Below are positions 831 to 64,000 of a stretch of DNA of 64,000 nt, in pieces. The stretch comes from Ceratodon purpureus (Eukaryota > Streptophyta > Bryopsida > Pseudoditrichales > Ditrichaceae), in the NCBI GenBank assembly GCA_014871385.1, contig CM026425.1, forward strand, positions 744,001-808,000, in the 5' to 3' direction. Within the stretch, counting starts at the first letter, position 1, and every line of letters starts with the position of its first letter. Both the position numbers and the translations under genes were made by a program. The notes under the pieces were generated by a model. That model ran no database searches and was not told where the DNA came from. It was given only the letters and a program-made list of their open reading frames with translations.

Positions 831-1177
831 AATTTGTTTTACCCTTAACGTGAGTCAACCGGTCAATGCCCTTATGTGATGGACACGGGGGTGTGCCTTG
901 TCACCATGACGGACTAACGGACTAACGGACGGTCGGTCTATTATGACAACCATGTGAGTACTGAGTTCAAGGATTCCAGAGTCAAGGTATACCATGTCCT
1001 CGTCCTTCCAGCGTGTGTAGTCTTTGCCGCTTCCAGAGCAGCGCTCGAGACAAGTCCTTCGAAGTATGAAATTGGTTGTGGCGCTATGCTCTGAATTCGG
1101 TATAGTTTGTGAACTATATTTGCCTTAACATGCGATTTCTGATTTCTCCTGTACACGGTATGGACATGGTGATATAG

Positions 1178-1829
1178 TCATGTAAGATTTACGAAAACAA
1201 TCAATAGTACTAAAGCATTTCCGAGTTTTTTTAAATAGACTAATTCATGATTGAAGTTGTGGAAGATATTACCGTCGTGAAGTACCGCTACCACCGTTGG
1301 TACATCACCCTTAGGATCCAGGATAATACTATCTACGGAATAATGCCATGTTATGTTGCCCTTATGGTACTCGTCGATTAGAGGCATCCAAGCCTGCAAT
1401 TGGTGATTGCCGTCCCAGACCATGAACATCATATTGGAGAAAACACACAAGTCTTCGTCTGCTTGAAGCATCCTCTCAAATTCGTTGTTTACCTGCCGCC
1501 ACTCCGGACTCCACGAATCCGATATTTCTCTGGTAACCTCGGTTGAGCGTCCGTTGTTATCCACAGCAGACACATAGAAGAATCTGTTTCCCTCCATATA
1601 CCCACTGGCGATAAAATATGAAGCTAGGTGAGAGACATCACTCTTGAGGTATGGTCAAACAACGGGGAGCGACATCATCCTACAAAGAGGAATTTTAAGT
1701 CTGCTCTTGGACCTTGGCTCCCACTTCAAAGCGTCCAATCGAGAAGCCGTATTGCCAGTGGCAGCACCAACAAGATCATGAAGCTTTGAATTAACCTCAC
1801 TCCGCGTTAGTTGAATCGGGTCAGGATCT
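1178..1829 (-). pseudogene. Exon of unrecognised protein, with in-frame TGA
   Basis: On the minus strand a splice acceptor (CTTCTTGTTTGCAG) ends at 1830. The frame then stays open to 1178, except for one TGA at 1655-1657. About 60 residues precede the TGA and about 155 follow it, including a start-like ATG at 1597. The second part contains a MVWDGNHQLQAWM stretch and an ITWHYSVDSIILD stretch, which look like a folded domain rather than random sequence, but I cannot name the family. The single nonsense codon suggests a pseudogene or a sequencing error; a hidden intron is less likely because no GT donor sits just before the TGA. More fragments of the same strand may continue to about 950. Confidence 0.4.
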
Positions 1830-1924
1830 GCAAACAAGAAGGTGACAAAACCCGCCTAATTAGAATACCATTGAACTGCCAAAAATAATTCTTATTTCGG
1901 TACTCAAAAATCAACGTTATAAGC

Positions 1925-3480
1925 AACGCCGTCAACGGCATCATAAAATATAGTGTCTACACAAATAAATAAAAGAGCATTCACAGTAACAACCTGTGAT
2001 GGCACCTATGCCAACATGGTAAAATGAAACTAACTGAGGACTCGGCGAAGGCACTGCTGGTAACTTGAACTACAACCCAGGTGCATTTTTCAGTTTAGTC
2101 TATGGTTTCCAAGAAGAACTTGCACTTGCAAGCATCAAATGTACACTACAAAAAATAACAAAATTAGGACACCTCTTGGCTGATGCCGTTGCCGGCAGTA
2201 TCGTCAGCATAACCGATTCTCATAAATGTGACATACACTATTCGATGCCGGCATCAGCAAAGCTGTCTACATCGGCTTCCTGATATTAAAATCTATCAAA
2301 ATGACCACCGCCGTTACCGGCAATACACTTGATTGACAACTAAGTTATTTCTATATCCCCGGCAAAAACCGATAGCATAGGTAAAAAAAGGAAGCCATCA
2401 TCCATCTCAATGCCTCTGCCGGTGCAGGCAGGGCCCATGAGGAGGCATTCTAAAGCCGCTCGTGCTCATACAAGGCCACAAAGTCTACAAAATGGGCCTT
2501 GCCGGCAACGGCAACGGCTTTTTTGTTTAATTCGATAAATTATTTACAAATTTCAGCTAATTATGCTAACCGCATTGGTATAAATTGTGCTTCTTAGATA
2601 TTCATAAGCATTCAAAGAAGACGTTGCCGTTACCGGCAATGACTGGAACAATAAAAAAAGGACTCCATAAAAGAATTAAAACAAGGCCTTTTGAGCGATG
2701 CCGTCAACAGCATAGGTTCAGACTAAGATTTAAGGAATGCAATATCCGGTCCTTCGAGGCCATTGCCGTTGCCGGCGGTCGCATTCGTTAGGATTATCCC
2801 AAAAAAAATCTTCATTCCACAAGCGATGCCGCTGCCGGCATTGCTTAAGGCATTGACATTTTGCCAAAAAAAAGTCAACATCTTGGCTGCATCCGGCAAT
2901 GGATCTGGCATTTGAAGGATTTTTTAATTACTAGAATTCAACCTGATGGCAACGCCGTTGCCGGCATTGATGTCAAGACGACCCATGCGATATGCTGGCT
3001 GTGATCTACAGTCCATTACAAGTACCGACTGTGGCTTACAAGAAGAAAATATCTTACATACTACACCCGCTGTCAAGACGGCAACGCTCAGAAGACGACA
3101 TTTCAGCCATTGAACAAGACGACATTTCAGCCATTTTGGTCGCCGGCAATCGCATTTTGATGACCCTAGACGCAAGAAAATGAGCAAGCTTTGAGCAATG
3201 CCGGCAGCGGCATTGGTAATAGCAGTCTTCTGAGAAGAGTAGACATGTATACATAGAATGCCTACCAGTCTTTGCGGGTGCACTTACTCGGACCCAATGG
3301 CCTAGACCTTGGCAGCATTACGAGCGAGGTCCCATGGTGAAGCACATGCCCTAGCCGGCATCTATCCTCTCCGGGCCAACTTTCATACCAGAAAATCAAA
3401 AGTACTCACCCTCGGCCGAAACTGATCTAGGTATTCTTTTTAGACATGGCCATCTTGGACTCGATGTCAGCGCCGGCAAC
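1925..3480. repeat. Island saturated with TGCCGTTGCCGGCA-like words
   Basis: At least a dozen close variants of (T/C)GCCGTTGCCGGCA or its core GCCGGCA lie about 50-150 bp apart in otherwise AT-rich DNA, near 1928, 2180, 2243, 2307, 2500, 2620, 2763, 2825, 2950, 3140, 3196, 3355 and 3471. The intervening sequences do not resemble each other, so this is not an ordinary tandem repeat. I see no convincing gene between 1850 and 3540. Confidence 0.7.
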
Positions 3481-3549
3481 GCATAAGCATGGCATCAAAA
3501 AACCTCCAAAGTGTTCGGAAAAACGAGAATGATTAGGAAATCAACTTAC

Positions 3550-4657
3550 CGCTTGTGTCCTGCTGCGTCATCCGGATGTCGGTTCTGTCTTCCTCAGCCT
3601 CACCTAAATGCTCCTCCGCCTCGCCTCCTTGCGTGGCTGCATCCTCTTCTCCGCCCCATGTTGTACCGTCATCCTCCGCGCCACCAAGTTGCACAGCCTC
3701 GCCCTGTGCCTCACCAGCATGCATCGCACTTCCCGAAGGCTGCTCCTTGTCCACCTTCATAGAACCAGAATTCGCTGGTGTCTTGCGCTTTGGATGTGGC
3801 ACTTGCAGAAACACGACTGTTGTTCAGAAACTCTTGAAGTAGCATAAGCCCTGAACCCTAAAGCGAAACTTTGAGAGAATGGAGACTTAATACATACCAT
3901 TTCTGCAACTTGAATGTGGGATAAAGAACACAAGCTACGGCAAAGATGCGACAACTGAGGCTCGACAGCAACTCCAAAAGTGACCGACTCTGAATAAACA
4001 AGGCAGTATTGATAACCAGAATGTATAGTATCGAGGAAGCTAGGGTGAAATCTAACGAAATGAGCTAAGAAGGTAAGAATTATGTGCCCAAAGTAACTTC
4101 AGCCGACCTTGTCTAACTACATCCTTACTTGTCATTGTCTAACTAGGAAATCACCTCACGTAGTCTCCAATCATAATCTTTTATGTGAATGAACTATTAT
4201 GATAAGTTTGTAATGCCATGATGTGACTTGCCTCCATTAAAAATGCGGGCGCCGTAATACTTATAATTGTGACACAGTCGACAATTACCTAGACTCCTGG
4301 TATGATCATATTGCAATGGCTTCCATTTTCAATCAGAATAAACATATCATAACGAAGTATCTAAGCATCACAACTATCCAAACAGTTGAAAATGTTATAA
4401 ACTGATATAATAAAGGGCATTGTCCAGAACAATTTTGATGTATGCTGAAATAAAAAGCTGTTTAATTAACTCACCTCTGTTTCGTTTGTAACACTTTTCT
4501 CAGACATCACAGTCCTCGCGTTCCTTCCACGACGCTCGTACTCCTTTGTGCTCTCTCTTGGTTCTTCTCTACCTACAACTGGCGTCTTTTGAAACTCCAG
4601 CACTCTAGTTATTCCACTCTTTTCAAACCTCTCATTAAGTTTCCTAACCTTTGCCAT
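3550..4657 (-). CDS. Spliced hypothetical protein, partial model
   Basis: Two exon-like blocks lie on the minus strand. The first, 4475-4657, starts at an ATG, encodes 61 residues rich in Lys, Arg and Glu, and ends at a strong donor (GAG|GTGAGT) in phase 0. The second, 3550-3801, follows an acceptor (TTTCTGCAAG), encodes about 83 residues rich in Gly, Ala and Glu, and ends at another strong donor (GCG|GTAAGT). The region between (3802-4474) probably holds a further exon near 3900-3960, where a GTATGT donor is visible; phases of 4475 and 3801 do not join directly. No domain is recognised. The next exon downstream may lie in the repeat island or at 1.2-1.8 kb. Confidence 0.35.
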
Positions 4658-9134: not shown

Positions 9135-9890
9135 GTGCACAAGGTATCTGGACCAGTATCTCGACAGGTGCACGAGGTGTCTCGATTGCGACAAAGCATG
9201 GCCAAATTTTTTTACGAGTCTAATATTCCTTTCAACGTGGCTCGAAGTGCCTCAGTCAAGGACGCGGTGTTGAAGACGTCCAATATGAAGAGATCCTATT
9301 TACCTATATCCTACCACGAACTCCAAACAAGGTTACTAATAACACAGATAAGGATTAGTTTGGAGACTTCCTTGAATGATAGGATTTTTTCCAGTGTCAG
9401 GAAGTACGGTAGAACTTTGGCCGTCGATGGATGGACTTCTGTAAGCAGTCGCCCTTTGATGAATGCAATGCTAGTCTCTCCCGTTGGTGAGCTTTTTTTG
9501 GGAGTTTTTGATACGAGCGGGAAAGAAAAGGACCTTGTCTACATGGCGACTGTCATCGAGAAGTTCATTGAATAAGTTGGGAAGGAGAACATCATTCAAG
9601 TATGCATTAATAATGCTCCGGTGATGCTCAATGCTGAGAAGTTGATCCAATCACTCTTTCAAAACATTTTCATCCAGGATATGCTGCGCAGGCGATAGAC
9701 CTTTTGGTGGAGGACTGGGGTAAGATGAAGTGGGTTAAGGACCTTCTAGAACAAGCCAAGAACTTGGTGAAGTTCATTAAGATAAGGCGAATGCCACTTG
9801 CGGTATTTCAAAAGCACGAGGCGTCTCTTAGCTTGTTGATGCCCGGTCAGACTAGGTTTGCATTCCGCTACATTATTTTAAAAAGAAAAA
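9135..9890 (+). pseudogene. hAT-family transposase, decayed
   Basis: The translation follows the DUF659 region of plant hAT-like transposases: YGRTLAVDGWTSVSSRPLMN, then FLGVFDTSGKEKD, then VGKENIIQVCINNAP, then AIDLLVEDWGKMKWVKD, and finally a MPGQTRFAFRYI segment. The frame is broken by an in-frame TAA at 9573-9575 and by a frameshift near 9670. The N-terminal BED zinc finger and the C-terminal dimerisation region are not visible. The copy ends in a poly(A)-like run at 9887-9910. It is inactive. The family call rests on motif order recalled from hAT proteins, so it should be confirmed by a profile search. Confidence 0.7.
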
Positions 9891-10669: not shown

Positions 10670-12744
10670 TCAATACCCCTCACGGTAGTGCTCCCTCAAG
10701 ATGGGCCACTTGTGTACATCTTTGAATCGGTTAATAAGATGTCCGAGTCCACCTCTCGTTCCACGATCGTTCTTGCAAACTCTATCAAGGTAAGAATCAA
10801 AAACTAAACCAAGGTCTTCAATCCTCTCAAAATGACGTGGTTGCTCTTCCGCTTCATAATATGCGATGGACATATTGCCGCAGTTGATCCTTGCGGCAAT
10901 CTTTGCAGTTGCGAACTCCTCCGATCTAATACCCAAATCTAGAATGATTTGAATATCTTGGTTCTCCTTGTGTACATATACCACGCTAGGATTCATCCAA
11001 TATCGCTTTCCCATGGTCTCTTGCATCTGTTGGGCACTCTCGAAAACCCGGGGCGACCTTTTAGGCTCATCTTTCTTCGTCATCAAGCCCCAATCGCATA
11101 CCACGATGTAGATCTTCGACTCATCCGCCGGAAAGTGAAGTAGGATGTTGTCTGGTGACAAGTCATTGTGGAGCCAACCAGATTTGTGCACCCCATCCAT
11201 AATGTTAATGAGTGCCCAAGCAAGCTCTGTTCGCTTGTTCTGATGAATGGCCGCAAACCGAATAACACCCGGATGGGGAATTCTTATCGCAAGAGATTCG
11301 TTGTTGTGGTCCACGCATGCCAAATCCGGCCTAAGAGACCAATTAAGCGGCCGTTTTTCAGCAAACTCCCAAGCTGGAGAGATTTCAGCAGACAGCTCGA
11401 TGCGAACCTTGTGTATGGTTGCATAACCACCTCTAAGGACATTTCGGTCCAATGGATGGAAAATTGCGCCTTCAGACAACACAGTTAAAGATCGCTTCCG
11501 TAAATTAATCTCAGTCTTCCTACAAAGCGGGGAATTCCACCATTCAATAGAAGCACGTCGATGCTGGGAGGAAGCATGATAAAGTGTACAGAAAAAGTGC
11601 TTATCTATTTGTCAATTTCAGCCCTTTTGCAAAAACTGCACAAAAGTGATGGAAAGATGTAATTGAAGTCAATTTTTTTTGCTAATATAGATTCTCAACT
11701 TCTTTTTGTACAACTCGGAAAAGTTTCATGCTAAGTAGACACTTTAAAGTTATTGTATGAGGGCTTCAAACCCAAGCAAAGTGGATGCAAATATTTGAAA
11801 AAGTGGCTATAAAAGAATAAAACATTATCTAAAAATCACTTTTGATGAAGTGGGGCTCTCTGTATGTTTAAGAGGTATTCTAAAATAGGCAATTCATATA
11901 CTCATTGTTTGATTTAGAATTCCAAAAGTATCGCAAGGATGTTTTTTAAGAGGGTCACTTCCTCAATACTTTTTGTCACTTTTTCTTCACCGAACATTGT
12001 TTTTTAAATTGGAAAAAACATCCTCTAAAGTCAATAGATGGCCCCAAATGAAGAAATGAAGACATTGAAAAAGTTCATTTTCATGATTTAGAACTAGTGG
12101 TCAAATTAGGTTTCGATTGAAGATCTTTTCTTCCTGAAGATGTATACAGGATACCTTCTGACATCTTAAAAAGTGACTAAAACACTCAAAAACCACACCA
12201 AAATGCTCAAAATCAGATTTGAGCTTCGAAAAACAGCACACTTCATAATCACTTCCATTTGGTCACATCGGTCACTTTGTTGTACACTTTATCATGCTTC
12301 CCCCCTGCTGTCTCCACCTCATGGACGTCATTAGTTTCTGGAAGCAATCTGCCTTTAAAAGAACATCCTTGAAGGCCTCGTCTCCCCCCCTATGCTCCCT
12401 TCCATTCTTAGCTAGAATATCACGAGCATTCCATAACGCATTATGTGCACGAGTTGCCACGAATTTCTCGTACTCGGCCTTCTTTCTCTCCTCCTTAAGT
12501 CCTTCCATTGCGGTGCCATCAAGGCATCCATAATCTTCAACTCCATCTTGAGCTTGAACTTTTTGGGCCCGTCCTCTTCATACCGAATGTAACAATTATC
12601 CAAGGAAGCAAGGGTGGTCTACTCGTAAAATCGAACGATGAATTCCATAACAAAATCCTTGCAACGTAAATTCAGTCTATCATCGATGTTCTTCTAATAC
12701 CCTAATTGCCCCACACTCTTCTCCTTCTTGTTCTTCGGCATCAT
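10670..12744 (-). pseudogene. Protein-kinase-like gene split by a DNA transposon
   Basis: On the minus strand a frame begins with a double ATG at 12739-12744 (MMPKNKKEKSVGQLGY). It meets two TAG codons and a one-base frameshift near 12508, and reaches RWRQ at the edge of an inserted transposon (11570-12301). On the other side the frame resumes and runs to 10670. The C-terminal 270 residues contain a kinase catalytic loop (HNDLSPDNILL) and a DWG in place of DFG; no glycine loop or VAIK lysine is obvious. Removing the transposon and one copy of its putative 5-bp target duplication joins the two halves in frame. Two nonsense codons and the frameshift make a working full-length product unlikely, though the kinase-like half is intact. 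It may belong to a repetitive gene family. Confidence 0.55.
11570..12301 (-). mobile_element. Non-autonomous DNA transposon (copy A)
   Basis: The element is about 730 bp and has perfect terminal inverted repeats of 21 bp containing GAAGCATGATAAAGTGTACA. A putative target duplication TGCTG lies on both sides, allowing for a few G residues at the tips. It has no open frame of its own. It is strongly similar, in opposite orientation, to the element at 47306-50205. It sits inside the kinase-like gene. Confidence 0.75.
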
Positions 12745-51534: not shown

Positions 51535-54251
51535 ATGCTCCCTGCAATTCGAGAATGGCTAAAGGAACGTAGAATTCATGTGGATCTTCCTACCTCACCT
51601 CTCCAACCACGTCTCTCCCAACACATGATAGCTCAGGTGAATGGAGGCAATCCTACACACTCTCCAGGGAAGGCTCGACCCGCACGGGCCTCCAGAATGG
51701 TCCGGAACAGTGCACAAAGTCCGTATCCGAAACCTAAACCGTCTCAGGTCAACCCCCCTCAAGAATGCTGATGATAGTTACACTCCTCAGCCAAAATACC
51801 CAGGGGCTCAACGACTCTAGGAAAGTTGACAGAGTTCGTAATTATTATAGGAATTACTTGAGACAAGCATATATTATATATTTGCAAGAACACAAACTCA
51901 GGGGCAGGCGTGCGTTGGCCATCAAAGAATTGATGTGGCCGGGAGCACAATTCTTTTGTCAAGACGCAGTAGCAGCTTACAATCATGCGGTAATAAAGAA
52001 GGGGCAGGTAGCGAAGGCGTATGCATGTGGGTGGCGCCACGACTTACACATATGATATGTTATTCCGGCCAAGCTCTAGGTGGTGATGCACAATGGGTGG
52101 GGTTGCATGGTGTCCCTGGGACAGACGTGGCCATAATCAACATCTACGCTCCACACACCCCTGCACAAAGATGTGCTTTGTGGCTCAAATTAATTGCGAG
52201 TCTTCCAAGCAACTGTAGATGGATTATGACAGGGGATTGGAACTTTGTTGAGCGCCCTGATGACAAATCCAGTCAGAAGCTTTCACAGACAACCGTGGAA
52301 GAAAGGAGGGAGTTTAAAGAGTTTAAGGAGCTCTTCCAGGTAGAAGATAACTTCCCCTCGGCCCAGCGACTTAAATACAGCACGGACAACAAACGAGGGG
52401 GCCGAGACATAATTTTGGCAAGGCTTGACCGCTACTATACCTTTTCAGATGGTGGCGACCCAACTAGTAAGGACAATTACAAAATACTTGGAGATTGTTC
52501 GGCCTCGGACCATCTGCATGTATGGAGGCAGATCTGCTTCGAACTGCAGCCCAAATCAAGCTCTCCGTATGTCATGAATGCATCCCATCTTAAAGAACCC
52601 GAGGTGCAACTTGGGATCAGGAGACTCTGGGCTCGTTTGTCTCACCTCCCCTTTTTTGGGAAACTCAGAAGATGTGTAAAATATTACAAAGAGTTCTGTA
52701 TCAGCAAAGCCGAAGAGAAGCGGTTCGTGGAGCAACAGTTGAGACAAGAGCTGGAGCAACTCTCGGGCGCATTGCAACAGGATACGAGCAATGAACAGGT
52801 GCAGGGGGATTTTGCGCAGGTAGCAGGCCATCTCTTGAGCTTCGAACGGTCGAAGGCCGAGGGCCAACGACTTAGGAGCCGCCTACAGTGGAAAGGCAAA
52901 GGAGACCAATGCTCGAAAGAGTTCTTCCGAGCACACCGCCAACGCTCCAACGCCTCCCACATCACGGAACTTGACGATGAGGACGGGACCACACACACAA
53001 ACCAAGCGGATCTGGCACGCATCTGCCACAGATACTATCAGAAGTTGTACACGGGGAGGGAGGAAACAAATGAGGGCGCCATGACCAAAATTTTAAGCCA
53101 CCTTTCGGACAGCTTGTCCACCCAAGCTAAAACTGCCCGTAGCGCCCTCCCAACGACAGAGGAGCTACATCACGCTCTCATGGACATGAAAGTGGGCAAG
53201 TCACCGGGACCTGACGGCATACTCTTAGAGTTCTACAGGTCCTTTTGGGATATTCTGGGGGACGAATACCTAGGAATGCTGCGGGAAGGAATTGTGCAAG
53301 GAGAATTACCGCCGGGAGTGACACAAAGGACCATCGCCCTGCTGCACAAAGGAGGTCTTAGGCGCCTCTTGACGAACTGGAGGCCCATTACTTTGCTAAA
53401 TATCAGCTACAAGATCTATGCCAAAGCTCTTCAACTTCGGTTGCAATCCGTTCTTATGGAGATTATCAGCACCAACCAATCAGCATTTTTGCCAATGCGA
53501 TTTATTCTTGATAACCTCCTGTTGACCCATGAGACAATTGCCTGGGCGGAATAATCCCAACAACCATTACTGTTTCTAAAACTCAACTTCTCAAAAGCGT
53601 ACCACATGGTTGATTGGGGATGTATGTTTCGAGTTATGGAGGCCCTAGGGTTCCCTACAGAGTTCATTGGTATGGTTCGGCTCCTCTTCCAAGGAGCCAC
53701 TACTACTGTCAAGCTCAATGGGTCCCCGTCTCCCTCACTCCGTATTGAGCGAGGGGTGCGCCAAGGCTGCCCCCTCGCTCCTTACATCTTCCTAATCACT
53801 GCTGAAGTACTGAGTCGCATGGTGGACAAGGAGCTGGCTGAAGGAAGAGTGGAGGGCATTCGGCTCCCATTTGGCAACCGCCAGCAAACTCTTGCACAGT
53901 ACGCAGACGATACCTCACTCACGCTCCTAGGGGACGAGGAGAAGGTACGCAATATGATTTACATCTTGGAAACATTTTGCCTAGCGACAGGATTAGTCCT
54001 GAACTGGTCGAAGTCAAATGGTTATTGGAAGTGCGTTAACCAGGAGTTTTCGCCCAGCCTGGACGGTCCATCAAGGGATAGCGTGGGCAGACAACGATAG
54101 TGTGAGCAAGTTGCTGGGAGCACCATTTGGACTCTCTCTTAGTACAGCCAACGTCGACGATTTTATACACACAAGGCTTGTCAAGAAACTGACGTACTAA
54201 AGCTCTACGAAGATAAACCCAACAGGTCAAGGCGTGGTGGCCAACAGCGTC
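51535..54251 (+). pseudogene. LINE retrotransposon, inactive and truncated
   Basis: The tail of an ORF1 (51535-51771, Pro-rich, ends PKPKPSQVNPPQEC) is followed by ORF2 from ATG 51765. The endonuclease domain shows LSQNTQGL, LQEHKL, INIYAPH, MTGDWNFVE and SDHLHV. The reverse transcriptase shows GKSPGPDG, WRPITLLNISYKIYAKAL, GVRQGCPLAPYIF and QYADDTSL. It is broken by a frameshift near 52005, a TAA at 53552-53554 and another stop near 54198. Motif A reads LKLNFSKAYH in place of the usual LDFxKAYD, so a catalytic Asp is Asn. It stops at LTYxSSTKINPTGQGVVANSV, where an LTR element begins. The element belongs to the APE-type plant LINEs by motif order. Confidence 0.8.
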
Positions 54252-54774: not shown

Positions 54775-56985
54775 ATGGCGCACGTGCAGTGTAGCATCCT
54801 TAGCCCCGGAACTCCAGTGAAGGAATCGGATATGGAGGAACTGATCACCGACCTCACTCGGATGAGGTGTGAGGGATTGTTGGCACGGCCGTGGTTACTG
54901 AAGAGTGAGGTGATGGTGAGGGAGGTCCTGGAAGGACCGGACAACCGGTGGGATAATACGATCCGAGGCAAGCCCACGCTGTGGAATGCGGAACAGTGGG
55001 CAGCAGCTTACGGTTTCGAGCAGACCGGACTCCTTTGGGCGACCCGGACGGATAAATACGTGCAGGATAGGTTCCACGGGAAGATCCATAGGAACAACGG
55101 ATACGAGATAGACGCCTGCAAGGATAGGAGGCAGAGGCAGGTCTTAGCTTTCCTCGTTCCGATCCTGTACCCGCAAAAACCGGCACAAGTTACCATTACG
55201 GTCGGGAACACCATCCTCGGAGCGTATTCAGGAGAACGTCCGGTGAATTGGGCCGCACTCATGGCGGAAGTGGTGCAGAAGATGGTGCCGACGATCGGAA
55301 AGAAGCCGACCCCACTCTCCCCTTTCCTCTTTCACCTTTACCATGCGTATGAATTGCTGAGCGATAAGGAGGACAAGACGTATACGCACGCGAAGAACTG
55401 CCTCAAATTCTCGGAGATTCCGCCCGGAATGGAACCCGATCCGCGAGGTGAGCTCTCGGATACAACGTCCTCGGAAGATGAGGACGATACGAAGGAGGTT
55501 CCGAACCCTGGCGCTACTAGGGCTCAGTCCAGATCGCGATCGGAGCAGGCTGCGTCACGACACGCGGAGCCCTCTACAGCCCGGGGAGATCCGGAACGGA
55601 GAGAGGTCAGTTCCGATCGGGGATTTCCGGTGGACCTATTTCGGGGGATTCGGGAGGAGACTCACCGGGCGCAAGCTTCTTACGATCGGATCGAAACCCT
55701 GTTCCGGAGGGTTTGTACATCACTGGGAGGTTGCTTACCGGAGGAGGTGATCCGAGAAGTGGAGTTGTTGAAGGACGCCCCAAATCTCCGGAGTGAGAAG
55801 AAGCGGCTAGAGCTTCAGTTGCAGGAGCTGACAAGGGAACTGGCAGCCAAGAGTGATGAGATCCGTAAGTTCCACGCCGAGCAGGAGGAGACTTTGGGGG
55901 AGCTTCGGAAGTTGGTGGGAAGTTCGGGAGCGGTAATCAACAAGGCCCGGCTGTTTGATGAGAACGTAGTACAGCCGGCCGATTTCGAGGACAAACAGAG
56001 GATCATCATGATCCTCTCCAAATGCGAGCACTCGATGAACATGATCCTGAAGAAGATCCGGCAGCTGCTCAATCCGAGTACCGGAAGTCCCAGTCTCAGA
56101 GTCGCTGGTCGGAGCCTCCCGCTCCCCGGATCGCCCTCTCGGGCCGTTGTAGGAGAATCTCGCGGAGTGGGGTTCCGAACCCCGATAGGGAGTAACCTCC
56201 AAGTCGAGGAGCGGATGACAGTCGAAGAGGCCGCCATGACAAATCGGACGATCGCGGAGGTGCTCCGGGAACACCAAGCACAAGTGGCGTCACCCGGAAC
56301 CAGTACAGTCCAGCAGAGCTGCGCGATTCCCACAGGTCAGGTGGAGGTGACCGGAACGACAGTCACCGAGAGGCGGATCGAGGAGAGGACGGTTTCGGAA
56401 CAGGTGACTCGGACCGTGCAGCCGGATGTTCTTCCACGACTCGGAGAGGAGGTGATCATTGCGAATTACCGAGGGGAGATAGCGGGACCGGAATGGGGAC
56501 AAGCTAGTTCACCACCCGGACGGACCCGAGTGACTCAGGAGGGGGGATTGACCCCTTCACCCACAGCCAAGACCGGAACGGTGACGCCTACTCCCACCGG
56601 AACGCCAGGAGCGGATTCCCCATCAAACAGTGTCGGTGCTTACCGGAGGTTGCGGAAAAGGAAGGAGCCGACAGAGAAGGTCCCGATTGCGATTTCAGAG
56701 TCTGACTCAGAGACGCACGAAAGCTCTCCGGTTGGGACCACCGGAACTGATACTCGGACTCCGACGTCCGGAACCCCTCCCGCACATATGATCCCGAAAT
56801 CGCCCAAGTCCCCCAAGCCCCGGATCGTTACCCGGTTGTCCTTGGAGGCTCAGGAGAGGGAGTCAAAGGCGGAACGGAGTGCTAGGCGCAAGGCAGCACG
56901 AGCAGCAGGGGCGGGCGGATCAGAGCCGCGGGTGACCAGGTCGAAGGATCGCGAGCAGGAGAGCCACAAGAAGCCAAAGAAGTGA
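54775..56985 (+). CDS. 736-aa ORF inside putative LTR, unknown function
   Basis: The frame is intact from ATG 54775 to TGA 56985. Residues 1-215 look like a globular domain (LLARPWLLKSEVMVREVLEG, WNAEQWAAAYGF, VNWAALMAEVVQKMV, TPLSPFLFHLYHAYELL), reminiscent of plant-transposon-associated domains, though I cannot name one firmly. Residues about 215-300 are Ser/Glu/Arg rich. Residues about 330-430 form a coiled coil (SEKKRLELQLQELTRELAAK). The remainder is low-complexity Pro/Thr/Ser, ending in a strongly basic tail (ERSARRKAARAAGA). There is no zinc knuckle, protease or polymerase. It lies downstream of a TATA box and upstream of the primer-binding site, so a genomic RNA would carry it before gag. 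An intact frame in a landscape of dead elements suggests youth or selection. It could be an extra capsid-like or regulatory protein. Confidence 0.6.
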   Translation: MAHVQCSILSPGTPVKESDMEELITDLTRMRCEGLLARPWLLKSEVMVREVLEGPDNRWDNTIRGKPTLWNAEQWAAAYGFEQTGLLWATRTDKYVQDRFHGKIHRNNGYEIDACKDRRQRQVLAFLVPILYPQKPAQVTITVGNTILGAYSGERPVNWAALMAEVVQKMVPTIGKKPTPLSPFLFHLYHAYELLSDKEDKTYTHAKNCLKFSEIPPGMEPDPRGELSDTTSSEDEDDTKEVPNPGATRAQSRSRSEQAASRHAEPSTARGDPERREVSSDRGFPVDLFRGIREETHRAQASYDRIETLFRRVCTSLGGCLPEEVIREVELLKDAPNLRSEKKRLELQLQELTRELAAKSDEIRKFHAEQEETLGELRKLVGSSGAVINKARLFDENVVQPADFEDKQRIIMILSKCEHSMNMILKKIRQLLNPSTGSPSLRVAGRSLPLPGSPSRAVVGESRGVGFRTPIGSNLQVEERMTVEEAAMTNRTIAEVLREHQAQVASPGTSTVQQSCAIPTGQVEVTGTTVTERRIEERTVSEQVTRTVQPDVLPRLGEEVIIANYRGEIAGPEWGQASSPPGRTRVTQEGGLTPSPTAKTGTVTPTPTGTPGADSPSNSVGAYRRLRKRKEPTEKVPIAISESDSETHESSPVGTTGTDTRTPTSGTPPAHMIPKSPKSPKPRIVTRLSLEAQERESKAERSARRKAARAAGAGGSEPRVTRSKDREQESHKKPKK

Positions 56986-57932
56986 TAGATTCCTCTCACT
57001 GCCACTTGTCGTAACTTTCCGGATTTATAGGAGTAGATTCCGGATCGGGAGATCCGTCCTAGTCGTAAAGTAGAATTCTAGGTAGGTAGTTAGGGATTAG
57101 GGTTTTGATTGAACTGCCGGCGCCGCCGCTTTTGTGGAAGCCCCTGCTTACTTAAACCAGGCAGGCGAGGCGGTCCGGGTCTTCGTTTTTGCATGTTTTC
57201 CCCCTATATTCCTTATCAGTAAAGTATTTGTGTTTTGTAAGTACTGTGCGTGATTTCCCGCTAAGTGTGAATGATCCGGGAAGGATATGAGAGTTCTGCT
57301 GTAGCTCGGATAGGAAGGTGATGGGAGTTGCGACGAGACCCGAACCGGAAAGGAAATGGGATTGAGCGGAAAGATTTAGCGGATTGTCGTAGGAGTGAAG
57401 CCTCACTGTTCCGTCCCCAAATCAACCTCATACGGAATAGCCGTCGCTAGGGTCGAAGCGGATCAAGAACTACTTGGTCGGGCTCCCTGAACTTCTGAAG
57501 AGGTTCCGTGCACAGTGAGAGGGGGAGTCGGAACGTGGTACGGGTCGCCTAGGGATAATCGAATCCTGGTTCTCCCAGATCCGGATTGGTTTGTCGTTGT
57601 AGTCCCACGGATCGGAGAGGATCGTTTGTGTGACCTGCTGGCCAGAGTACTCTAGGACAGTTGTGAGACGGTAACTGATCCGAGACGTTGGGGTTTGTGG
57701 ACGAAACACCTAATGAAAGAGAAGAATAGAGAAAGAGATAGTTAAGGAGTTACGTTCCGAAGACACTATCCGAGCAGTGGCAAGGCTCGGAACGATTAGA
57801 AGTAACTACTTGGTGAAACACTATTGAATCCCTGGACGATACTCGGAACCTAGTGACAGTACGGAAGTTTACGCTCAATTAGAGCGCTATCCGGATGTTA
57901 GTTGCGTTTCCGTGTTTCGACACGTAAAAATC

Positions 57933-57950
57933 TGGCGCCGCTGCCGCGGA
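57933..57950 (+). other. Primer-binding site, tRNA-Asp type
   Basis: TGGCGCCGCTGCCGCGGA matches, with two differences, the complement of the 3' end of plant tRNA-Asp, the primer used by Tat/Athila-type Ty3 elements. It lies 12 bp before the ATG-bearing gag frame. Confidence 0.65.
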
Positions 57951-57961
57951 TTCGATAAGCT

Positions 57962-59791
57962 GTGAACCAGGTAGATACTCGGAAGATAAGTGAGCGCAGA
58001 TTTGAAGAAAAGTGGAGTCAGATCGTGAAGGCTTCTTTTAGGTGGATATGCTGTAGTCGGAAGTCTTACGTACAGATCTTGCCTTCCGAGGAATCGGATG
58101 AAGAATTCCCAATCTCTTCCATGGTTGGGGCGCAACCGGAAGAGTTAGGGGGAAGAAGATCCTCTCGGTTGCTACAGAAGAGGGGAAGAGTTTTGGTACA
58201 CGATCTACCGGGGACGAACCTACTTCCCCGGATCCAGACTGCTGTAGAACGAGAAGGAGACGTAATCGTGGTATCGTTGGCCGGAACCTCCACAGCCGGA
58301 GCAGGTACAGCTCCTGACCCGGAAGAAGAAGAAGTCGTAGCTGACGAAGTCGAAGCCGACGCAGGAGTAGAAGAGGAGACCGAGGAAGAGGAAGAAGACG
58401 AGGAAGACAACCCAATGGCACCCTCTACCCGACTGAAGTACAACAGATTCAAAGGAGACGGAAGTCAAGACGTGAACGAATGGCTCTGTGAGTTCGAATC
58501 CATCGCTCTGGCCAATCAGGAAGATCCGGATGCGAAGAGGAGGATATTCCAAGGTCTTCTGAAGGGAGAAGCTCTCCAGTGGTACCAAGACGTTCCGGAA
58601 CGTACACGTAACGACTGGACCAGTTTCGTGACCTTGTTCCGACGTACGTTCCGTGAGGCCGGAGGAGAAGCTCGCGCACTCGGAAAGCTGAGTCGGATGA
58701 CGATGAGATCCTCCGAGTCAGTACGGAAGTACAGTCAGAGAGAAAAGGCGCTCATACAGAAACTCACTACGGCCATAGCTCCGAGTGTACAAGTGGAATG
58801 GTTTGTCGCCGGATTCCCAGAGGAGATGGGGTTTCAGATCCGACAAACCCGTCCCGCCACACTTCAGGAAGCCGTGGAAGCGGCTCAGAACTATGAGAAC
58901 TCGGCCCAATCTCTACGGAAGTCTCTGAAGCATACCGAGAAGCGGGGTAAGAAGATCCGGAAGGACAGAGAGCGTCGGCGGAGGCACGAGTCCTCCTCGG
59001 AAGATTCCGACTCTACCAGTAAGAGCGATTCCACTTCATCTAGTTCCGATCAGTCGGAAGAGGATTCAAGGGGAGCCTCGAAACGCCGAGGCGGTTCCAG
59101 TAGAGACTCCCGGCCTAGACGGAACCGAGAGTTGATCAAGGTGAAGGTGGAGGATGACGATTCTCGGAAGGTAATGAAGGAGATGAAGGAGATCCGAGAA
59201 TCGATTGCCGAACTCAACGTCCACCTTTCCGAGAATCGGAAACCTCGTAAGATGATTCCCACCAGCAGAGCTAATGTGTGGTGTGCTAACTGCGGAAAGC
59301 AAGGACATTATCCTCCGGAGTGTACTGAACCCCGCCAGAAACGAATTCACTACGTCCATCCGGAAGAAGAAGTATACTTTGCCTATCCGGAAGAGGAAGA
59401 GTTTCAGATGGAGGAGTACCAACCTGTGTATCAGGTTCAGACCACTTACGGACGAGGGAAAGCTCCGATCCAGATAGCCCGTCCTCCCGCCGGATACCGG
59501 ATCCCACAGAACGTTCCGGGTAGGCCGATGTACCAGAAGCCGACCCACGGGTACTGCTTTAACTGTGGGAGCCCGGATCATTACGCACCTAATTGTCCGT
59601 TTGAGCGACAGGGGCAAGGAGCACCACGGATCCTTCCGTGCCAAAATTGTGGAGAGTACGGTCATACGGCTCCTCAGTGTGCCAAACCGGCACAACCCCG
59701 CCCGACTTTCAAACAGGTGGAGGTCCCTCCGAGAGAGATGACTGGGCTAAACTATGGTCACTATGGTGGGATAGAGAATCCGGACAAATGA
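57962..59791 (+). CDS. Ty3-type Gag protein, 609 aa
   Basis: The frame is intact. An acidic stretch (residues about 120-140) precedes the retrotransposon gag domain (VNEWLCEFESIALANQEDPD, LLKGEALQWYQDVP, WTSFVTLFRRTFREAGGEA, residues about 160-260). A basic and Ser-rich region follows, then three CCHC zinc knuckles: CANCGKQGHYPPEC, CFNCGSPDHYAPNC and CQNCGEYGHTAPQC. Gag forms the particle and packages the element RNA. No protease, reverse transcriptase or integrase follows; only a short pre-protease segment is left, so this copy could move only with help. The frame is open just before the first ATG at 57964, so the true start may be that ATG at the codon NQ region or a later one. CGGA words are dense here, as in the flanks. 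Confidence 0.85.
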   Translation: MNQVDTRKISERRFEEKWSQIVKASFRWICCSRKSYVQILPSEESDEEFPISSMVGAQPEELGGRRSSRLLQKRGRVLVHDLPGTNLLPRIQTAVEREGDVIVVSLAGTSTAGAGTAPDPEEEEVVADEVEADAGVEEETEEEEEDEEDNPMAPSTRLKYNRFKGDGSQDVNEWLCEFESIALANQEDPDAKRRIFQGLLKGEALQWYQDVPERTRNDWTSFVTLFRRTFREAGGEARALGKLSRMTMRSSESVRKYSQREKALIQKLTTAIAPSVQVEWFVAGFPEEMGFQIRQTRPATLQEAVEAAQNYENSAQSLRKSLKHTEKRGKKIRKDRERRRRHESSSEDSDSTSKSDSTSSSSDQSEEDSRGASKRRGGSSRDSRPRRNRELIKVKVEDDDSRKVMKEMKEIRESIAELNVHLSENRKPRKMIPTSRANVWCANCGKQGHYPPECTEPRQKRIHYVHPEEEVYFAYPEEEEFQMEEYQPVYQVQTTYGRGKAPIQIARPPAGYRIPQNVPGRPMYQKPTHGYCFNCGSPDHYAPNCPFERQGQGAPRILPCQNCGEYGHTAPQCAKPAQPRPTFKQVEVPPREMTGLNYGHYGGIENPDK

Positions 59792-59914
59792 CGGTTCGTC
59801 ACGGAACTACAGGAGGGCGCGGAAGTATTAGTACACAGAGTATCAACCCGTAGTTCCGCTAGAGAACGTGCCCAGGAATCGGATCTTCCGAAATCCCGGA
59901 AGACCAGAAGGAGG

Positions 59915-60337
59915 GTGAGATCCAGGAGAGTGGATTCGGATTCGGGATCCGAACCCTCTACGGTAACCAGAGCTTTACCAGGGGAAAATGACCGTCCAAG
60001 AGCGGAAAATGGGGTGGAAGGAGGAAACCTTCCGGAAGATATCAGCGAGGAAGTTCGGAAAGAGCTCACGGATCCCCCTGCCCGGAAGATCACCAAGCCT
60101 TCGGTCCGGTTTGATGACGTTCCGGTGGTTATTCCTTCCGATCCTAGAGTGGACGAGTATGATATTCTTGGGGACAACAAATCCCTCAAGGCAAATGTCA
60201 CGATTGGACAGTTGCTCCATGACAATGTGAATTACCAGAAGGTAATCCGAGAGGCATGGACGAAGCGGAGGCGCCGAGGGGTGAAACTGTGGAAAGTGAT
60301 TTCCACGGTTGACACACCGGAATACAAATTCCGGTAG
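59915..60337 (+). CDS. Pre-protease segment of Ty3 polyprotein, truncated
   Basis: The frame, open before its first ATG (59915), contains FDDVPVVIPSDPRVDEYDIL and KANVTIGQLLHDNVNYQKVI. This resembles the conserved YDIxxxLxxxKANITxGQLL region that precedes the protease in Ty3 polyproteins. It then runs abruptly into the 3' end of the element (GTGGAAAGTGATTTCC, shared with 5461) and stops at 60337. Protease, polymerase and integrase are therefore deleted. Confidence 0.6.
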   Translation: MRSRRVDSDSGSEPSTVTRALPGENDRPRAENGVEGGNLPEDISEEVRKELTDPPARKITKPSVRFDDVPVVIPSDPRVDEYDILGDNKSLKANVTIGQLLHDNVNYQKVIREAWTKRRRRGVKLWKVISTVDTPEYKFR

Positions 60338-60342
60338 GAAAA

Positions 60343-60785
60343 TGATAAAAAAATTTAAAATTTTATGTTAGAAATACGGAAGTACAACGCCTATAAGTAA
60401 AACAACCGGTTAAGCCGGTCGGCTGAATAAATAAGTGACCGGAAGGCCAGCCGGGTAAGATCCGGTCGTCTGCGGTGGAGGAGAGACGGGTACAGTCCAT
60501 ATGACAGAGCCCTGACCCGGCAGACTTAAGGATAACCACCAAAAGGTACAACGCACACGGGGATAATGGCTGCAACCATTAAAACGCCGCCGGTCGCGAC
60601 CGTCCAATGATGAGGGGCTACGACCGTCCGTCATGATGAGCTACGAACGGGTGGTCGCGAGGGCAGGTATAAAAGGAGGAAGGACCGCCATGCTCTTCCT
60701 TTCTCTTTGTCATTTTGTGGCACGACGGGCCCTTGCGCTCTAAGGCGGTGGGCGCAGTTAGGGTTAGACGGTAGGAGAGAGACTG
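60343..60785 (+). mobile_element. 3' LTR (family L), truncated
   Basis: It begins TGATAAAAAAA after a purine-rich GGTAGGAAAA and aligns with 5516-5955, with TATAAAAG at 60668-60675. Similarity ends abruptly after GGTAGGAGAGAGAC, where TGTAATTGG begins, probably the edge of another insertion. Confidence 0.7.
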
Positions 60786-62681
60786 TAATTGGTAAAATTT
60801 ACAAATAGTGGTAAGTCATGGGAATAGGTCTTTTCGTTTAGCTTTTAACGTAACTAAAGGTCACTGCAGTAAGTAAAGAATGTATAGAATGCAAAGTATT
60901 TCCTTAAAAGAATCTCTTTATAACTCTAATGTCTTAATTACCCCAAGTCACATAAAACCCAAGTAATCCAAACTCTCAATTGGTTCAAGGGTAATGGGAG
61001 TTCAAATTGACAAGTACCATCTCTCGGTTTATTGCCATCACTCCCTTCCAAGTTCAATTAGACAATGCATTTATTATGCATATGCAAGTTCATTCATTAC
61101 TAGGTTAGAATCTAGTGTTCAACCTATTTATGCCTATGAATGATGCTTTGGGATATGTTATGATAGATCAACTTATCTCAAGCAACTCCTTGCTTGTCTT
61201 CATCTTTTTCCTCCCATCCAGCGCATTTCAAATAGACATGTAATCACTGTCTACTCATTCACATTCAATCATACTCCAACTCTACCATTCATCACAACTA
61301 TACTTCTCAATTGTATTACTCAATTACAATGACTGCACTATACTCCAATTGAATACATTCAAGTTTTACTATAATGAGAACTAATAATCACTAAGGCTGA
61401 TCACTCCTTAATAATTAATGTCACTTTTATCCATCAATGTACTCAATCTGGCTTCCATAAACTCTAAGTCATTCTCAGTCTTCTATTTCAGATGGCCAAT
61501 CTAATTTAAAAGACTATCAAGTAATACTCACTTCACTGTTCCAGTACTCACATGGAACTCTCATTCTCCATAATTCCCATTCACAACAATGCAATTGTCA
61601 ATTGGACAAACTGTTGTGTTTATTTTCCATAATTTCTATTTTCTATTCACTCAGTAACTCTTTCCTTCGTCCTGAGTTCAAATAGACAATCTCACCCACT
61701 GTTCACTCTGCTCCATCAGCATCTTTGATTTCAAATAGACAGTATCCATTTCAATTAGACAGTGTCCAGTGTGAGTCACCACATTCACTGTAACTCTCAC
61801 CAACTCTCCACTGTGTCAATTAGACATGGTCCATGCAAGTCAAGTTGACAATGTATGCATGCCCAATGCCCATGGATGCATACCGAACCACCATCTTGTC
61901 CATTTGACCAGTGTTAACTAGACATTATGCAGCAAGCAATATGAATTCAATTTGTCAATTAGACAGTAGCCCTTTGATCAAACTATTCATTCTATCTCCC
62001 ATGGACTACATATAAATCCACTGTTCAGCAGATCTGCAGTTTCAATTTGACAGTAAGCTTCGCAAATCAATTAGACAGTAATCAGTTTGCTCCAGTTCTC
62101 CATTCTGATTCTACAGTTCTGCAAATTAATACGCTATGCATCGAAGCTATAGTTCAAATTGACAAAGAGCATTGTGATTCAATTATACAGTGAGCTACTC
62201 AGGGTCAAGTTGACAATCAATTAGACAATGGAATTCTATTTTTATATTTTTTACATAATGTGACTATCACTCACACAGTGTTGTGTGGTGTGGTGAAGTA
62301 ATTCTTTCTTCTTCCTTAATTCCTAGTTATGCCTTAATTTCTAAAGGGTGTGCCTGTACGTAGAGTCAATTTGACAAGTCGTGTCTCTAGGTAGGGTCAT
62401 GTCCCCTGAATTCTACACTATTGTCCATTTGACTCTCAACCAGATTTCTACAGCCACTATCTACATGGATTTCAAATTGACATGGTAACTTGGTCCTATT
62501 TACACTGTTTTTGCTGAAAAGGACTTTTCTCAAAAAAAGTCAGCTCACATAGCCCCCCTCTTTGTCTACTTGACTCCCGGCAAGTTCCACATTTACAGCA
62601 TTGTCTACTAGACACTATGTCAACTAGACTCAAAAATTATATACAAAGATTAGCTTGCACACCCACTGTAACTACTGTCAA
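60786..62681. repeat. Non-coding part of the CAAnTnGACA island
   Basis: No reading frame is convincing. From about 61000 the sequence is studded with variants of TCAATTAGACAGT, for example at 61003, 61055, 61229, 61599, 61679, 61732, 61752, 61817, 61841, 61956, 62043, 62068, 62155, 62206, 62218, 62367, 62473 and 62679. They are spaced irregularly and are mostly in the same orientation. A word with seven fixed bases is expected about once per 16 kb per strand. Confidence 0.85.
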
Positions 62682-64000
62682 CTAGACATGGTGACGTCGG
62701 TGGTGATTACGGTGCTGGTCACCGTAATGGCTTTCCTTCTGGATCCGCTGCGCCATGAGCTTGGACACCTCCCTTCTTACTTCATCATCCTTCCGAAGTA
62801 ATTCAGTGTTATTGGAATGCTGGAAGGTTAGCCAGTTGTCAATGGCTATCTTCCGAGTTCCCCTGAATTCGTTGATGAAGCATCCATTAGACCCGTAAAG
62901 AAAATGAGTCATGGCCATGACTTCCAGCATCCTCCCCCAACGACTTGAGTGGTAACGGAGCTTGAGATTGATCAAAAACTCCGGCCTCCTCTCATCGTAG
63001 CGGTTCACATTCACCACCACCTTGAAATCCCTGTAAATCCGAGCCAAAAACTTGGAGAAGATTGCTGCTCGGAAACACACAGGGTCGGTGTGTGTGTGGT
63101 GAATCTGCCAGAAGCCCTCATAGGCCGTGGCACAATTCCATGCCGTGTCAAATTGACCAGGGATCAGTGGCCAATTATACTCCACCGAGTCAATTAGACT
63201 ATCTGGAGCCCACTTGAATCTTCTTCTACAGTCGCAGAAATGTCCATTTGTCCTCACAGCCTCAGGAGCCGCATCGGTCCAATTGACATTTACTATCTCC
63301 TTGTAGATCAAATCCCATGACCGCTCCTCCCTTCGAGACAGTCCGTAATCCTCCAGCAGCCACTCAATCGCAGTCCACGTGGGTAGCGGAAAAACCGCTT
63401 CATTGTCAAATAGACTCGCATAATTCCCCAAGTACTTGACTGTTAAGGGGGATCCTGTAACCGGTGTTCGAATGGACAGCCACCCCGGTGCCTTGTATGT
63501 GGGTGGAGGCAAGGTCAACTCGACTTGAAGATCATGGCTGGTGATCACAAGGTGATCCTTCTTCAACTCTCTCAAGGTGTCCATGATCTGCTGCCTCACC
63601 TTGTGCATCCCGTAGACATAGTGTGCCGTGGTCAACTCGCCCCTTTGAGCATAAGTCTCCCTCTCCAGCACACATGACAACTTGACAAGGATGTTATCAC
63701 GGTCATCGAACTCCTTAAGCAGCCCCTCCAAAGTTGCTGTCCATTCCTTGAGCTCCTCACTTGGCACCTTCTCCGCAACATCCACCACCTGTCTACTCGA
63801 ATCGCCCATCTTAACCAGTCTGTGACTCTCCTCCGACATGTCAAGTTGACGTCTCTTCTGTAGCTGCTCTTCCAGAGTGGTGTAGTATAACACCACTCTT
63901 GCTCCCAAGTGACCTATGGGAAGAAACAACTTCTTCTGGTCGGTCAACTGGACATCGCCTCTTGCTATCATCTCACAGATGAGATTCTGCTGATTAGCAT
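62682..64000 (-). CDS. Unrecognised protein, partial at window edge
   Basis: The minus-strand frame is open from the right edge to a stop at 62682. An ATG lies at 63971, but the frame stays open upstream, so the start may be outside the window. At least 429 residues are predicted. The N-terminal half has a charged helix-rich stretch (LEGLLKEFDDRDNILVKLSC), the C-terminal half is globular in character (FWQIHHTHTDPVCFRAAIFS, RWGRMLEVMAMTHFLYG) and the tail is His/Arg rich. No domain is recognised; it could be a host gene or an element protein. The coding sequence itself contains many GTCAAnTnGAC-like words in the same orientation as the non-coding flank. Confidence 0.55.
   Translation of the reverse strand, partial: ANQQNLICEMIARGDVQLTDQKKLFLPIGHLGARVVLYYTTLEEQLQKRRQLDMSEESHRLVKMGDSSRQVVDVAEKVPSEELKEWTATLEGLLKEFDDRDNILVKLSCVLERETYAQRGELTTAHYVYGMHKVRQQIMDTLRELKKDHLVITSHDLQVELTLPPPTYKAPGWLSIRTPVTGSPLTVKYLGNYASLFDNEAVFPLPTWTAIEWLLEDYGLSRREERSWDLIYKEIVNVNWTDAAPEAVRTNGHFCDCRRRFKWAPDSLIDSVEYNWPLIPGQFDTAWNCATAYEGFWQIHHTHTDPVCFRAAIFSKFLARIYRDFKVVVNVNRYDERRPEFLINLKLRYHSSRWGRMLEVMAMTHFLYGSNGCFINEFRGTRKIAIDNWLTFQHSNNTELLRKDDEVRREVSKLMAQRIQKESHYGDQHRNHHRRHHV

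Follow-up and report, generated by a model that had tools for sequence, protein, structure and literature searches.

The 64,000-bp stretch of Ceratodon purpureus DNA analysed here (the window; C5:744001-808000 of an assembly of 362 Mb in 151 contigs) ends inside an intact Ty3-type long terminal repeat (LTR) retrotransposon, the 3' part of which is densely written with one short palindrome, GTCNANTNGAC. This unit is an 11-bp dyad, GTC-N-A-N-T-N-GAC, with a gap of exactly five bases between GTC and GAC. Its fixed bases are conserved among related copies independently of the protein code, and the dyads are very probably protein sites selected at the DNA level, most likely the putative binding site of a dimeric protein. 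The best candidate for that protein might be the product of a large extra open reading frame (ORF) that the element carries next to its 3' LTR.

A preliminary description of the window had reported more than 25 copies of CAAnTnGAC(A/T) between 61003 and 63950, with fewer than one expected by chance, and the counts bear this out. CAANTNGACW has 35 matches in the whole window, whereas 100 dinucleotide shuffles gave a mean of 5.8 and a maximum of 15; 32 of the 35 lie within 61003-63954, where the shuffle rate predicts about 0.3. All 24 window matches of the stricter form TCAANTNGACA fall within 60000-64000. Its longer form, GTCAAnTnGAC, had been called nearly palindromic; the true unit is tidier than that, being a strict palindrome, of which a mismatch-tolerant scan found 20 perfect copies, 19 of them in 60000-64000 and a single one in the preceding 60 kb. 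The remark that most copies lie on the plus strand holds as a count (24 plus, eight minus), but the bias stems from the word chosen, which is asymmetric because TTC replaces GTC on one side of many sites, and site orientation has little meaning since the dyad is a palindrome. Moreover, the seven places named inside the minus-strand reading frame are dyads (63147, 63189, 63277, 63405, 63514, 63840 and 63943), and the array extends past the window edge to about C5:811000.

The array region forms the 3' end of a 16,436-bp element in minus orientation (C5:804784-821219). In a pattern search of the genome, dyad sites came in pairs that recurred at a distance of about 14.5 kb, which is an LTR signature, and the LTRs were then confirmed in C5:803001-829000. 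They are 1,766 bp long, have TG...CA ends and are 100.000% identical, so the element is young. Retrotrans_gag, zf-CCHC, RVT_1, RT_RNaseH, Integrase_H2C2 and rve passed their Pfam cut-offs in Ty3 order, while the protease stayed below its own (Asp_protease_2, 17.6 versus 24.3 bits) and a chromodomain was absent from the element's Pfam matches. A large sense ORF of 1,019 codons lies between pol and the 3' LTR, as in Athila/Tat-like elements with an additional ORF (aORF), and the minus-strand reading frame of the window is the C-terminal part of this extra gene. The primer site is one that we take to resemble that of Athila.

Within the element, the dyads are restricted to the 3' part (6,574 bp), which holds 36 perfect copies against 0.08 expected, or 44 when the second LTR is counted. 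Eight are found in the LTR (20 with at most one mismatch), three in the 135 bp between ORF and LTR, 16 in the extra ORF (3,057 bp) and seven in the 1,616 bp between pol and ORF; gag-pol (6,576 bp) has no perfect dyad and four with at most one mismatch, and the 5' leader (1,517 bp) has no perfect dyad. The spacing is equally strict, as GTC-N5-GAC occurs 36 times in the 3' part and each other spacing from 0 to 14 bases occurs zero to two times. All 36 of these sites have the central A-N-T, and among the 72 sites with at most one mismatch, positions C3, A5 and T7 are each kept in 72 and G9 in 71. A codon-position check inside the ORF, as proposed in the preliminary description, found all three phases used by the 16 dyads (five in frame 0, eight in frame 1 and three in frame 2). 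A dimeric DNA-binding protein is favoured because a palindrome of fixed spacing keeps its fixed bases in any codon phase.

Several comparisons indicate that the word itself is under selection. When the ORF was permuted among synonymous codons 2,000 times, a mean of 0.93 and a maximum of five sites arose, against 16 observed. Related ORF copies were then compared at positions capable of synonymous change (27 copies; 30 were fetched from at least 46 matches, and three of other length were left out), and 2 of 49 fixed bases were variable versus 338 of 1,076 bases elsewhere (p = 8e-6), or 0/49 versus 217/1,076 when only shared variants were counted. The free (N) positions of the word varied like the background (6/18). 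Since synonymous fixed bases are conserved while free positions vary normally, the word appears to be selected as a nucleic acid. The same tendency was found on the LTR side (1.5 kb, 30 copies), where 8 of 88 fixed bases were variable versus 551 of 1,414 elsewhere, and before the ORF for shared variants (7/72 versus 411/1,433). Furthermore, in comparison with an 82%-identical copy, 171 of 184 fixed bases were identical against a background of 2,947 of 3,671; 15 of 24 sites were common to both at the same place, eight were aligned but lost and two were present only in the other copy. The p-values of these conservation comparisons (1e-9 to 0.05) are guides rather than exact values, because the copies are related by descent. 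Thus, among the causes put forward earlier, the strict dyad, its fixed spacing and the conservation of its fixed bases lend good support to a dense array of protein-binding sites as a class, with the binding itself still putative.

A functionless process of mutation or copying could also spread such a word, and a tandem array elsewhere in the genome (L053, described below) does multiply it by tandem duplication. In the element, however, the flanks of the sites are unrelated (similarity of flanking 15-mers 0.310, versus 0.301 at random positions, sd 0.003), and the only tandem repeat in its window part is a two-copy 20-mer in 61728-61768, so that the earlier dismissal of tandem duplication, and the comparison of flanks suggested with it, agree with what was found. 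Conservation also extends to the word's synonymous positions, and the array halts at gag-pol. Neither a word-copying or mutation process nor the amplification of a tiny mobile motif, both raised in the preliminary description, finds support here, and the former is scarcely credible as an explanation of the element's array.

The word might instead function at the RNA level, forming a short hairpin or a protein site in the 3' part of the transcript, where the sites are indeed transcribed and where each palindrome is a potential hairpin. The fixed stem would have just 3 bp around a five-base loop, though, and one-mismatch sites often break it (TTC versus GAC). In addition, the conserved central A-N-T would fall in the loop as its own mirror image; a DNA dyad accounts for it and a hairpin does not, which makes a role in RNA highly improbable. 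A consensus for an RNA mark (few C before GAC, few G after it) was considered as well and rejected, as CpG avoidance would be an equally good explanation. Improbable too, although less so, is that an element protein binds the sites for the replication cycle (packaging, handling of complementary DNA (cDNA) or choice of the integration place) and not for chromatin. Every RNA copy has the sites at its 3' end, and both cDNA LTRs contain them too. Packaging signals usually lie in the 5' leader, however, which is without sites, and the array shows no preference for the LTR ends, the place of integrase action, since it begins about 220 bp inward from the outer LTR end.

The extra ORF has at least 46 matches in the genome, on contigs C1-C13, a lower bound in that 45 of 190 first-look candidates were scored and distant families with other words were outside reach. 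Full length without a stop is kept in 30 of them. The ratio of nonsynonymous to synonymous change is 0.067 for shared variants and 0.21 for single variants, and the extra protein is under purifying selection. Two pairs of ORF copies with identical scores, at C6:87663437 and C6:87679805 (16.4 kb apart) and at C6:44496370 and C6:44510895 (14.5 kb apart), suggest tandem copies of the element. The protein (about 1,010 residues) has basic clusters resembling nuclear localisation signals at residues 52, 313 and 472, and no membrane helix was found by hydropathy (highest 19-residue value 1.18); by these features, it looks nuclear. A PDB sequence search with the protein returned three matches at chance level, and no significant similarity was found to the upstream ORFs of two neighbouring Ty3 elements.

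If the dyads are selected protein sites on DNA, then it is slightly favoured that their reader is the element's own extra protein, encoded beside the sites at the LTR-bearing end. Such a protein, acting as a dimer, would grip both half-sites of each GTCNANTNGAC on double-stranded DNA and would recognise family copies through site density, a form of self-recognition. Once loaded on the LTRs and 3' part of its family, it might keep or restore transcribable chromatin, in a manner similar to the VANC proteins of Arabidopsis. The complete proposal, in which the element's own protein keeps its family copies transcribable or returns them to that state, stands at somewhat short of an even chance, and an outcome of anti-silencing rather than plain activation is held less firmly than the identity of the reader.

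The model for this proposal is VANC21, whose binding target is a 9-base word that occurs in dense arrays and is highly enriched in the protein's own transposable element (TE) family (PMC5735166). The likeness to VANC21/VANDAL21 and VANC6/VANDAL6 consists in a dense, family-enriched short word combined with a non-transposase extra gene (PMC5735166; PMC10398659). In the Arabidopsis systems, the words differ between families, as do the words of the two arrays in the present window, one word is also found in an unrelated TE (AT9TSD1), just as a second repeat family here has the element's word (family B, below), and word-bearing units occur in tandem, which here applies only to L053 of family B. 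There are also clear differences. The carrier is a Ty3-type LTR retrotransposon, whereas VANDAL elements are Mu-like DNA transposons, the word here forms a strict palindrome, and the element is almost without tandem repeats; binding is deduced here from the sequence. No match to DUF1985 or DUF287, the domains of VANC-type extra proteins, was found in the extra ORF, with Pfam searched to E 1 for the whole frame and to E 10 for residues 70-280 and 535-1019. By its carrier, its domains, its sites in the coding region and its missing tandem units, the element is not a VANC system; what is proposed is that it works like one.

Several observations weigh against this proposal. The extra protein has no recognised DNA-binding domain and no Pfam domain above cut-off, and for its N-terminal part Transposase_32 came up only below threshold (E 0.021, 15.2 bits, cut-off 45). 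AlphaFold2 models, built from 14 of the 30 fetched ORF copies, which were near-identical, were of low confidence (mean pLDDT 34 for residues 70-280 and 31 for residues 535-1019) and were not used for a fold search. VANC sites lie mainly in non-coding DNA, whereas 16 perfect dyads of the element lie in coding sequence. Of the parts compared, the array-bearing LTR is the most depleted in CpG, a pattern that lasting protection from methylation would not be expected to leave. Conservation of the word is also uneven: before the ORF, the difference is weak when any variant is counted (34/72 versus 849/1,433; p = 0.05), and two diverged LTR relatives keep the fixed bases barely better than the background (63/72 versus 920/1,110 and 30/39 versus 520/730). 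Lastly, the presence of the same word in family B could point to a reader supplied by the host. As an observation on the element as a whole, the observed/expected CpG ratio differs strongly between its parts although all came by one insertion, being 0.20 in the LTR plus a short adjoining stretch (60784-62684), 0.43 in gag-pol and 0.63 in the extra ORF.

A host transcription or chromatin protein might read the dyads, the element having built a region similar to an enhancer, insulator or boundary, with the extra ORF serving another purpose. This is a possible but rather unlikely alternative, although the selection and dyad data would fit any DNA reader. The word is shared with family B (L053/L059, L060, L061 and L063), whose flanks are unlike those of the element. 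L053 (C1:21063900-21065300) has 35 perfect dyads within about 1.2 kb in a tandem arrangement that repeats at, among others, 62 and 158 bp, and is a natural case of word expansion, while L060, L061 and L063 have three, two and four perfect dyads, respectively. Between L061 and L063, fixed bases are identical in 16 of 16 cases for the two sites of L061 and in 29 of 32 for the four sites of L063, against a background of 730 of 1,169. The tandem unit of L053 has 40-70 bp in common with a stretch of the LTR and therefore may have begun as a captured piece. A further cluster of close GTCAANTNGAC pairs lies on another contig at C3:20531552-20534493, and the sequence between the pairs is unlike the element's units; its existence would also suit a host reader.

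Genome-wide, however, the excess of perfect dyads is modest (6,193 versus 3,757 for the reversed word, a control that differs from the dyad in dinucleotides) and could be mostly the work of the element family. With at least 46 matches and, in a full element, as many as about 44 dyads, this family could account for an estimated 2,000 or so of the excess of 2,436, a figure to be taken as an estimate since not every extra-ORF match is a full element. Close dyad pairs number 208 forward and 189 reverse in the genome versus one and one for the control, some places being counted on both strands. Five sites outside the family were fetched (L053-L057), comprising one big tandem array, one LTR relative at 71% and three lone sites, the last without similarity to the element. 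The sites also span the whole extra ORF, beyond what an LTR promoter would need, and the dyad does not match the WRKY W-box, which has an invariant TGAC core in TTGAC(C/T). A W-box array was accordingly tried and rejected, as the base before GAC is T in only 42 of the 72 sites, while the position preceding that base is T in all 72. We know of no plant factor with a GTCNANTNGAC site.

Compared with other known systems, the layout, in which a large extra sense ORF stands between gag-pol and the 3' LTR, is that of Athila/Tat-type aORF elements, as portrayed in passages of PMC11728184. Those passages state that the functions of additional 3' ORFs in plant LTR retrotransposons are unknown and report a nuclear localisation signal for one Athila 3' aORF(+) (PMC11728184). 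They describe no word array, and the present ORF differs from the aORFs treated there in having no transmembrane segment by hydropathy (PMC11728184). Among literature listings and the openings of abstracts, with few subscription journals represented, no earlier report was found in which an LTR retrotransposon has an array of this kind. Generally, CACTA, hAT and Mu-type transposons carry subterminal short words near their ends, which are bound by an element-encoded protein and serve excision. The many short words toward the element's end recall these repeats, but the latter adjoin terminal inverted repeats, whereas here there are LTRs, and the sites spread over about 6 kb of one end. The features located in the window are collected in the table below.

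Table. Dyad arrays and parts of the LTR retrotransposon located in the window (window positions unless a contig is given).
Feature	Position	Strand	Remarks
Second array, TGCC-N0-GGCA and TGCC-N6-GGCA	2184-3360		Carrier family differs from the element
Target-site duplication GAGAC, left copy	60779..60783		Right copy at C5:821220-821224, beyond the window
3' LTR, 1,766 bp	60784..62549	-	C5:804784-806549; identical to the 5' LTR at C5:819454-821219
Dyad array GTCNANTNGAC	61001..63953		19 perfect dyads from 61597 to 63953; one-mismatch sites from 61001
Polypurine tract beside 3' LTR	62550..62562	-	Purine-rich on the minus strand, judged by eye
Extra 3' ORF, C-terminal part	62682..64000	-	Whole frame C5:806685-809741 plus stop

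A blind scan of the window for dyads returned only two places, the present array and a region at about 1001-4000, and no match in ten shuffled controls. This second array contains TGCC-N0-GGCA six times and TGCC-N6-GGCA seven times, with no other spacing. Both spacings are kept in the window copy and nine relatives (67-80% identity), with 4-11 and 5-10 copies each, while dyads of TGCC and GGCA at other spacings number two in all ten places together. The form TGCCGNNNNCGGCA occurs 2,871 times genome-wide versus 187 for its control and, among the first 100 matches listed, is spaced in places at a period of 105-106 bp. Three ORFs beside the second array gave no Pfam match. Two strict-spacing arrays with different words mean that dyad arrays exist in at least two unrelated repeat families.

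The element sits between parts of other Ty3 elements, at 54775-60337 of the window and in L010/L011 (C5:821297-829000). These neighbours have an ORF upstream of gag, of 736 and at least 568 aa, mutually 25% identical over 479 columns and without a Pfam match above cut-off; that of the first neighbour (736 aa) has at least 61 copies in the genome. The window also holds a non-LTR (LINE-type) remnant in two frames at 51935-54100, which matches reverse transcriptase and, weakly, endonuclease. In addition, a DUF659 fragment at 9135-9575, presumably a relative of hAT-type transposases, and a protein-kinase-like ORF at 10670-11611 were found, both just under cut-off.

How transposons resist silencing without harm to the host is largely an open question, for which the worked example comes from VANC in DNA transposons of Arabidopsis. 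The sequence of this retrotransposon may follow the same logic: its word is dense and under selection at the fixed positions, the copy at hand is intact and recent, and relatives number in the dozens. A tentative suggestion, somewhat less probable than its opposite, is that LTR retrotransposons of this moss independently evolved self-recognition of the VANC type, in which the product of an extra 3' gene would bind a family-specific palindrome written through the LTR, the 3' DNA and the coding sequence of that gene itself, and that dyad arrays are a general strategy with words diverging between families. If true, GTCNANTNGAC here and TGCC...GGCA elsewhere would be instances of a general mobile-element strategy in this genome. 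The large extra ORFs found in plant LTR retrotransposons, hitherto unexplained, would gain a concrete, testable role, and an 11-bp site together with a candidate protein is on offer for a direct binding test.

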